DNA of 64,000 bases from Actinomycetota bacterium (GTDB lineage Bacteria > Actinomycetota > Thermoleophilia > Solirubrobacterales > Solirubrobacteraceae), in NCBI GenBank assembly GCA_005884115.1, contig VAXW01000007.1, forward strand, positions 1-64,000, read 5' to 3'. The notes below the pieces were generated by a model. It was given only the letters and a program-made list of their open reading frames with translations. It was not told the DNA's origin and made no database searches. Made by a program: the position numbers and the translations under genes. Below, piece by piece: positions 1 to 58,677 of the stretch. Position 1 is the stretch's first letter. Every line of letters begins with the position of its first letter.

Positions 1-172
1 TGAGCCCCCGCGCACCGCACGACACTCTGGTCCGCCTACCGCGACCGGATGGATGACTGGAGCGCTTCCGCCCCCGGCTGGCTTGCCGTCAACGAGCCGG
101 CAGACGACCGCCCGAGCACCGTGACCCGAACCTTGACAGGGCCCGCTCCTTCATGGATGACACATCACAAAG
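1..172. other. Left edge, no gene seen
   Basis: No ORF with coding character, RNA gene or repeat is visible here. By the orientation of the tRNA-His fragment that follows, this side would be the original chromosomal flank if the fragment is an attachment-site remnant. That reading is inference. Confidence 0.4.
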
Positions 173-216
173 GGTGAGCGAGGGGATTCGAACCCCCGAC
201 CGCCTGGACCACAACC
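173..216 (-). other. 3' half of tRNA-His (GTG), likely attachment-site remnant
   Basis: Read on the minus strand, this is the last ~44 nt of a tRNA: anticodon loop TTGTGGT (anticodon GTG, His), 3' side of the anticodon stem CCAGG, a 5-nt variable loop, a T arm with TTCGAAT, and the acceptor 3' strand CGCTCAC with discriminator C. The 5' half is missing: nothing upstream supplies CCTGG for the anticodon stem or GTGAGCG for the acceptor. Homology from the anticodon loop to the 3' end is the segment that tyrosine integrases commonly duplicate when elements insert into tRNA genes. On that model the element lies on the right (higher coordinates). No integrase and no intact tRNA-His occur in the window, so this is a remnant or the far end of an element. 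Confidence 0.7.
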
Positions 217-240
217 GCGCGGTCGCAGACTGGTCTGCAC

Positions 241-262
241 GCTCGCCTGGGCCCAGGCGAGC
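241..262. repeat. Perfect 22-bp palindrome
   Basis: The sequence is its own reverse complement over 22 bp (11-bp arms, no loop). It lies between the tRNA-His fragment and the 3' end of the broken gene at 291. It could be an intrinsic terminator for that gene (no T-run) or a recombinase or operator site. Which one cannot be told from sequence. Confidence 0.6.
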
Positions 263-290
263 CGCAGCGCGTGCTCGCCGACGAGTAGGG

Positions 291-2326
291 CTATTCCGGC
301 TCGGGGTCGACGCCCAACTGCTGCTTCATCTCGTCCGCCGCCGCCTTGTAGCACCCCTGAACCCACTGCGGCCGCATCGGACCCTCGCGCGGGTGTGCCA
401 CGCGCACCCAGTTCCTCGGGGGGAGCTCGCGGAACCGGCTCGCGTGATAGTCAGCAAGCAGACCCGATAGCGGCGAGCGGCGCTCCTCGGCGATAGCGAC
501 GAGCGGCTCATAGTCATCGAGCGTCACGATCGTCCTAGCGGCGATGCGCTCGTCGACGAACGCGCGATCGCCGAGGTGGCGCTCGACGTAACGCCACAGC
601 ACGGGGAGCTGCACGATGCCGCCGCCCGCGAGCACAAGCACCGGCCACACTCGCCGGACCGGGCCCAGATCGAGGTTCGGGTACGGCACGTGTCCGGCGA
701 GGACATCCGCGGTCGCCCTAGAGAGTTGGACGAGCTTGTCTATGATCGCCTTCCCCAAGGCATCTGAGATCCGCCGCTCGTCGGCAAGGACGCGTGCGAG
801 GCGAGGCAGCCGACCGGAGAAGACCTCGACCAAAACCAGATCCTCTCCCTCGTCGATCGCGATGTCGGGGCTGCGCTTGGCGTCTCCATCGACAACGTAT
901 TCGACATCGCCATGCACGTTCGCACGACCATCTGGCTCGTTGCCTGACAGCGCCTCGCGCGTGACACGCACCACGTACGCCTCGCTGAGGGCTCCAACGA
1001 ACCCGGTGAACGTCGTGAGCAGCGTCTTGTTGTCCACCCTGTCCGGACACGCGGGCGGGCGTTGCCTGCGTCGAGCAGTCGGTAGTACACACCCGCCGTG
1101 AACCAGCTGAAGATCATCCTGGGCGAGATCAGGAACAGGCGCCCGTCCTCAAGGCGCAAAAACGGCCGCTGTTCGAAGGGCGCCCGGTCCCAGGACACGT
1201 GCTCAGAACTCGTGCCGGCCAGCGCAAACGCGCTTCGGAGCTCATCTCGCGTCGCCGAGAATCCCGCCGTCAGCCGCTGCTCATGCGCGCCCAACGGGCC
1301 GCTCCCCAACCATCCCGGCTGAAGACCAAGCTTGCGTCCCGGCAGGCCGACGTCTGGCTCTACCGCTTTCGAGACGATCGCAGCGGCGAAGCCGGCGGCA
1401 AGCTGCTCCGACAGCCCGACGCCGTAGTCGGAGCGGATCCAGTCCTCGAGCGGGCAAGCGTCCGGATGCCCGGCGAGCTGCGAGTCGTGCGCAAGACCTC
1501 GATATAGCGCGTACGCCCGTGCGATCGCGTCCCCTAAGTCCGGCTTCTCGTAGTAGGCGCCGCCTTGCACCGCGAACGCTGTCCAATCATCGAGCTGTTC
1601 TTCCTCGGCACCCGCCGGCGGAGGTGCGTCCGGCGCCCTGCTCGTGACAATGCCCGGGATCGCGAGCAGGGCGGTGAGCAGCGTGGATGTCTGCTGGCCA
1701 GTGAGGCCATCCTCGCCACGAGTGGGCGCGGCATGCTCCACCAACAGCCGTTGCAGCACCGTCAGGTAGCGCTCGTCGAAGACCAGCATCCCCGCTTCGC
1801 TTTCGACGAACCAGCGCAATCGCGTCAAGAGCTGGGAGTCCTCGTAAAGCTCGTGCGCCAGCGCCAGTTGAAACTCGGCGTCGTCGCTGTGGTGGAACAC
1901 CTCCGCGGCAAGCGCCGAGATGTGGACCATCGCAGGCTCAAAGGGGACGGTACTCAGGTTTCGCAGCACCTGCTCATAGGTCAACGGCACGAGCCCAAGA
2001 TCGCCCGGGTCGGGCGAGGCTCGCAGAGGGTTGATCTCGATCACCACCGCGTCGCGTGTTCTCCGGCGCAGGCGCGCCGTCGCCTGCCGCGGAATCCAAA
2101 GACCTCGGCACCGCGCGCGAGCCACGTATAGGCCGGGGAAATCCATACCGATCGAGTCTCGCAGGCGGGCAGCGCCATCCCGCGGCGCGGAACCCGCACG
2201 ACCGGAGAGGGCGCCTGCGTACCCTGCTGGCGCTCCAACCTCCGGCGATCGGCGGTCCGAGCGCCGCAGGTTCGAGAATAAATTGGAACGACATTGGAAC
2301 AATGGACGCCGCGAGGGCACCAGCAT
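291..2326 (-). pseudogene. Large protein of unknown function, broken by a frameshift
   Basis: Two minus-strand reading frames carry the two parts of one protein. The upstream part (ORF 740..2326) reads well until about 1065-1090, where it ends in FTAGVYYRLLDA and then turns to Arg/Ser-rich out-of-frame sequence. The downstream part (ORF 291..1037) continues in another frame from about DNKTLLTTFTGFVGALSEAY to the stop. A single-base indel near 1040-1080 joins them. Coding quality before residue ~85 of the upstream ORF is poor, so the true start is uncertain; a GTG pair near 2042-2047 is one option. I do not recognise the family. A late segment (SPDIAIDEG...VLVEVFSGR) vaguely resembles a PD-(D/E)XK nuclease core but lacks the Lys. 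It lies beside the tRNA-His scar, so it may be element cargo. Confidence 0.55.
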
Positions 2327-2365: not shown

Positions 2366-2439
<74 letters not shown>

Positions 2440-58289: not shown

Positions 58290-58400
58290 GCCAGGGCGCC
58301 GGCATGCGGCGCGGCGGCGGCGTGCCGCGAGAGAGCGGACCGTGCACCCCTCGTCGAGCCTCCCGCCACGGGCGCCTGATCGCCGCTCGCGACTCCGGCC

Positions 58401-58490
58401 GGGAGCTCCCGCTGCGCCTATCGGGCATCGCTTAAGGCTGCTTCCTTCCGGACCTGACCTGATTCACGAGCCGACACCGCGCGGGACCCG
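58401..58490 (-). ncRNA. ffs: Signal recognition particle RNA (small bacterial type)
   Basis: The minus strand contains the universal SRP apical hairpin CAGGTCAGGTCCGGAAGGAAGCAGCC, with the GGAA tetraloop and asymmetric loop. Flanking arms (GGGTCCCGC near 58485 and GCGGGAGC near 58405) can pair to close a ~90-nt hairpin without Alu domain. Ends are approximate. Position upstream of dnaX is the usual one. Confidence 0.88.
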
Positions 58491-58677
58491 TGCCATCGAC
58501 GCCGCGAGCGACGAAGCGACCGGAGCGGAGCCCCTCGGAGAGGAGTTCAGCCCCGCTAGAGCGGATTGCGGGTACAGGGCACCGCTACCTCCCCGCCTAG
58601 CACGGTCCGCTTGCGATCCTAGCTCGATCCCACGCGGCTGGTACACGCGTCAGCCAAGTCCGTTAGGCTGCGCGACC
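58491..58677. other. Intergenic region between SRP RNA and the FKBP gene
   Basis: No ORF of coding character. It must contain the minus-strand SRP RNA promoter and the plus-strand promoter for the FKBP gene; I see no confident -35/-10 pair. The plus-strand ORF from 58342 runs through the SRP RNA and is rejected upstream of 58678. Confidence 0.4.

Follow-up and report, generated by a model that had tools for sequence, protein, structure and literature searches.

A tRNA-His 3' fragment beside IS481- and IS110-family ends, and the placement of an IS481 lineage at the 3' ends of tRNA genes

The tRNA-His fragment and the insertion sequence ends beside it

The stretch of DNA analyzed here (the window) corresponds to bases 1-64000 of contig C6 (74,439 bp) of the draft genome G000, an assembly of 3.14 Mb in 10 contigs that is ~88% complete. 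Its first base is the end of the contig (C6:1) and lies inside a repeated element. As C6 starts there, the locus of interest, a tRNA-His 3' fragment, sits at a contig end. Mobile DNA of three kinds meets at this fragment: a probable attachment core (172-216), the end of an insertion sequence (IS) of the IS481 family, and the end of an element of the IS110 family. The original prediction had read this junction as an integration scar, which we retain, and had left both IS ends unmentioned.

The fragment (172-216, minus strand) comprises 45 nt running from the anticodon stem to the 3' end of tRNA-His. It is identical to the sole intact tRNA-His of the genome (C7:950893-950966) and is devoid of a 5' half, as first described; the local match between window 159-216 and the C7 tRNA-His region was 98% (E = 2.9e-22). 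ARAGORN and Rfam made no tRNA call at 172-216. In agreement with the earlier statement that no integrase was visible, a profile search found no phage-type integrase (PF00589) on contig C6. The check proposed at the time, namely whether the intact tRNA-His flanks an integrase, had a negative outcome, the PF00589 match nearest to the C7 gene being ~86 kb away.

Fragments of tRNA-His that begin around tRNA position 26-35 are common in relatives, from the level of genus to that of order. Four genomes (G003, G013, G022, and G026) carry such a 3' fragment 3-27 kb downstream of the intact tRNA-His and in the same direction. In G013, where this distance is 12.3 kb, an integrase that is 50% identical to one integrase of G000 lies ~170 nt from the fragment. 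Since tRNA-His is an attachment site for integrases in relatives, whose genomes retain fragments broken at similar positions, an attachment scar of a common kind is the best reading of the window fragment. Judging from these sequence comparisons, it is probably the 3' attachment core of tRNA-His, displaced from its gene and left by a tyrosine-recombinase element. This part of the integration-scar claim thus stood; the nearby palindrome, which had been counted with it, provides no evidence for a scar. Unannotated stretches of three actinobacterial plasmids (NZ_CP104273.1, NZ_CP061722.1, and NZ_CP064357.1) are 82-89% identical to the tRNA-His fragment region over 47-56 bp. In a genome of the same genus (G017:C9, L264), a different repeat, TGTCATGAGTCGGGACAT, follows tRNA-His and is perhaps the end of another such element.

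The IS481-family terminal repeat occupies positions 159-169 (minus strand); the window reads GACACATCACA there, that is TGTGATGTGTC on the tRNA strand. It is followed by the 15 bp that an IS481 insertion would duplicate (170-184, minus strand), made up of the last 12 nt of tRNA-His and 3 more and set in the same register as in complete copies of the element. The T-loop DNA TTCGAATC (185-192, minus strand), found at a constant distance from the IS end, is the proposed reference point of insertion. We recovered eight occurrences of TGTGATGTGTC in the genome and none of the reversed control. Five of the eight lie 15-16 nt after a T-loop, at the window fragment (15 nt), the intact tRNA-His, tRNA-Leu(CAA), and two tRNA-Ser fragments, and the same word stands at tRNA ends in public genomes. 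Behind the C7 intact tRNA-His and behind a tRNA-Ser of Solirubrobacterales (L203), a 33-bp form, TGTGATGTGTC-N11-GACACATCACA, is followed by a hairpin and then by the tRNA-end repeat; these forms look like miniature derivatives. Elsewhere on C7 (319048-319117, L068), a tRNA-Ser(CGA) 3' fragment immediately precedes an IS481 end with a decayed transposase.

Window positions 1-158 (plus strand), identical to the end of contig C8, are probably the right end of an IS110-family element together with its 3' noncoding region. Sequences related to this stretch are found immediately 3' of IS110-family transposases (NF033542), and the opposite end of such an element is where contigs C3 and C10 break off. 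The alternatives that 1-158 is the end of an integrase or transposase, or the left end of an IS110 element, were dropped, as the position of the relatives and the opposite ends on C3 and C10 point to a right end. The transposase would be located off the contig, leftward of base 1; it is present in relatives, and the part that can be read in G000 is limited to its first residues, on C10.

All the IS110 junctions visible in G000 fall in IS481 ends. The right end is followed by GACACATCACA in the window, on C8, and at C7:863193, and the left end comes after GATGTC(C/T)TGA on C10 and C3. The tRNA-Ser repeat CCTCCCCTTCCGCTT is present on both C10 and C8, which therefore flank one IS110 copy. C3, on which the IS481 transposase is directed towards the contig end, would by elimination join the window. 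The orientation of the window IS481 copy, with its transposase pointing at the tRNA, depends on this join. The C3 transposase is incomplete (NF033577, 148.1 bits, below the cut-off of 224), and an IS3-type element cuts the 5' part of this copy. In IS1111-type elements, a guide-RNA region lies downstream of the transposase (PMC11187229); the layout of the IS110 end fits such a region, in which any guide is putative. C10 also carries a tRNA-Ser(TGA) 3' fragment (199-280) and a 404-amino-acid integrase gene (379-1593; both L013) that ends ~100 nt away; here an attachment site and its integrase are clearly paired.

Placement of the IS481 lineage across genomes

A scan of public genomes for a T-loop followed after 12-24 nt by the terminal-repeat word yielded 50 stretches. 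The distance from T-loop to IS was 15 nt in 25 of them, 16 nt in 21, 17 nt in three, and 24 nt in one, so that 49 of the 50 fell within 15-17 nt although 12-24 nt had been permitted. The hosts were mostly Actinomycetota and Chloroflexota, and most matches lay 0-4 nt after a tRNA called by ARAGORN. Several stretches held a complete IS481-type element with its transposase pointing at the tRNA.

As a test unbiased towards tRNA genes, the transposase of one copy (L165), which belongs to the IS481 family (NF033577, 239.8 bits for a cut-off of 224; rve domains), was searched in 397 genomes of the phylum. This search retrieved 20 copies at E <= 1e-60, and 15 of them, all oriented the same way, end 15-16 nt before the T-loop motif of a tRNA gene or tRNA 3' fragment. 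The five exceptions were two 41%-identical copies of a single genome (L227 and L231), a decayed copy (L228), the outer member of a tandem (L232), and the C3 copy of G000 (L226), whose end is interrupted by IS110. The tandem consists of two IS481 copies behind one tRNA-Leu (G257:C161, L217 and L232), of which the inner one abuts the tRNA, which suggests that this tRNA end served as a target on two occasions.

Complete copies, among them that of Demequina rhizosphaerae (L186), are 1.27-1.34 kb long, and one transposase frame fills most of them. In other genomes they exhibit TGT/ACA ends and a target duplication, of which the window shows one end only. We recovered exact 15-bp repeats in L165, L216, L229, and an Arthrobacter plasmid copy (L249), and repeats of 13-17 bp in other copies with an uncertain edge. 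The duplicated repeat starts right after the T-loop and covers the last 12 nt of the tRNA plus ~3 nt beyond; the tRNA is therefore rebuilt and stays intact. Relatives of the transposase in IMG/VR were uninformative, with pieces that were only 26-42% identical.

Interpretation and alternative explanations

We consider it quite likely that the window combines a tRNA-His core, an IS481 copy placed at the tRNA end, and an IS110 element inside the IS481 end, a reading drawn from sequence comparison. In this scenario, a tyrosine-recombinase element would have left the tRNA-His 3' core (172-216). The IS481 lineage would insert at a fixed register, with the IS end 15-16 nt after the T-loop TTCGAATC and in one orientation, and its insertion would duplicate ~15 bp while the tRNA remains intact. 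That many isoacceptors and also 3' fragments serve as targets, in a constant register and orientation, suggests that T-arm DNA, and not the folded tRNA, is what the transposase or a partner recognizes. An IS110-family element would have inserted within the IS481 end, which it probably finds by its own guide RNA. The identities, registers, orientations, and duplications were read directly from the sequences. We infer that the register reflects target recognition, that the signal lies in the T-arm DNA, that accessory factors are dispensable, and that the events followed this order. A bolder version could go either way: a one-gene IS481 branch would read tRNA T-arm DNA without an accessory factor and use many tRNA genes as safe harbours, at least in Actinomycetota and Chloroflexota, and the guide RNA of the IS110 element would be tuned to IS481 ends.

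Several observations weigh against this scenario. The join between C3 and the window was obtained by elimination and not read directly, and a search of C3 did not recover the second 15-bp repeat expected for the IS481 copy of the window, possibly because the IS3-type element cut the other IS481 end. The 41%-identical relatives (L227 and L231) are not located at tRNA genes. In the transposase tree, the tRNA-linked copies group together, the C3 copy included, but they do not form a single clean clade. Finally, a tRNA-His core beside a tRNA-Met has no explanation there.

The placement of IS481 could also result from selection alone, if the element inserts anywhere and only the copies in the harmless space behind tRNA genes survive. 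The 3' flanks of tRNA genes are indeed known as safe sites for many elements (PMC11406308), but selection would fix neither the register to 1-2 bases nor the orientation, and 15 of the 15 tRNA-linked copies retrieved by protein search share both. Copies also occur at tRNA fragments that are non-functional, including one on a plasmid, and we regard this explanation as highly improbable. Even less credible is that the tRNA-end elements are Tn7-like transposons or CRISPR-associated transposons (CAST) reaching tRNA genes via TniQ or guide RNAs. Such elements do use tRNA genes and, like IS481, have TGT/ACA ends (PMC11406308), but the complete copies, 1.27-1.34 kb long with repeats of ~15 bp, consist mostly of one IS481 transposase frame. 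They contained no Tn7-like or CAST partner genes (TnsC, TniQ, CRISPR); partners elsewhere in the genomes were not sought.

Concerning the tRNA-His piece itself, it could be what remains of a whole gene after deletion of the 5' half, or a fragment brought in by an IS, rather than an attachment core. The lack of an integrase on C6 and the abundance of IS ends beside the fragment would be consistent with such an origin. However, IS481 duplicates only ~15 bp and not 45, and fragments in relatives, located downstream of an intact tRNA-His, show the same type of breakpoint; one of these fragments adjoins an integrase. We find this origin unlikely, and favor an attachment core at the tRNA-His fragment.

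The elements resemble known systems only in part. Like other members of the IS481 family (NF033577), the lineage described here has an rve-type DDE transposase, TGT/ACA ends, a length of ~1.3 kb, and ~15-bp duplications. Members with repeats of ~15 bp are known, although most make 6-bp duplications, and a survey of the family makes no mention of tRNA (PMC10045372); fixed placement at tRNA 3' ends goes unmentioned in the papers found, and the lineage differs from most members in the length of its duplications. Tn7-like and CAST elements, which reach tRNA genes through TniQ/TnsD or CRISPR guides, also have TGT/ACA ends and use tRNA genes as harmless sites (PMC11406308); those systems are multi-protein or guided, whereas the IS481 lineage has one transposase gene in the element and uses many isoacceptors. 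The 45-nt tRNA-His core and its counterparts in relatives fit the class of tyrosine-recombinase islands at tRNA 3' ends, except that no integrase was seen at the window copy and that the core lies in a tRNA-Met island. Finally, the IS110 element recalls the IS1111/IS110 elements with seekRNA by the IS110-family transposase of its relatives, the inverted words near both ends, the downstream noncoding stretch, and the single precise target; here, in contrast, the target is the end of another IS, and the guide is putative only.

The IS481 family and 15-bp duplications were thus already known, and for the habit of landing at tRNA ends we found no published description. We found no account of it in the open-access literature; ISfinder and subscription papers lay outside that search, so that priority is unsettled. 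If true, a one-gene DDE element that locates the 3' ends of many tRNA genes in a fixed register would represent a simple and testable model of safe-harbour targeting, in contrast with tyrosine recombinases and Tn7-like systems, which employ dedicated recombinases, several proteins, or guides for tRNA genes. The IS481 lineage would also partly explain the crowding of mobile DNA at tRNA ends. As a caution, when a repeat adjoins a tRNA fragment, it may come from something other than the integrase element that produced the fragment. What merits further attention is the one-gene IS481 lineage placed very precisely at tRNA 3' ends, itself an IS110 target in G000.

The palindrome, the split gene, and the tRNA-Met island

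The perfect 22-bp palindrome reported near the fragment was confirmed at positions 241-262 (no strand assigned), 24 nt from the tRNA-His fragment. Perfect palindromes of at least 22 bp number four in the 64-kb window, versus a mean of 0.1 in 20 simple shuffles. Because it lies 28 nt beyond the stop codon of the 291-1037 frame, this palindrome is probably the terminator of the neighboring minus-strand gene. Its assignment to an attachment site was rejected for lack of support.

The broken gene of unknown function noted earlier was recovered as a split gene (291-2326, minus strand). Its two overlapping frames, 740-2326 and 291-1037, seem to result from a frameshift in a single gene, and no family match was obtained in Pfam, NCBIfam, PADLOC, or PHROGs. 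Searches of 60 relatives and of the plasmid collection gave no match to the longer frame (740-2326).

An intact tRNA-Met (2366-2439, minus strand), 2.1 kb from the tRNA-His fragment, marks the edge of a hypervariable island. Its neighborhood, with a ppx-like gene, is kept in relatives in the same gene order, and the sequence after tRNA-Met differs in every genome read. Just downstream of tRNA-Met, paired repeats resembling integrase arm sites occur in the window (2282-2305) and in relatives (L115, L120, L121, L129, L130, and L131), for example TTGGAACGACATTGGAAC or TGGTACCC..GTGGTACCC. Contig C1 of G000 carries a tRNA-Met 3' fragment (C1:448038-448079; L256, 8038-8079), with a full-length integrase ~14-16 kb further on the same contig; this fragment is probably the other edge of the tRNA-Met island. 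Far from these features, the window encodes the bacterial large signal recognition particle RNA at 58340-58605 (strong Rfam match, 150.5 bits).
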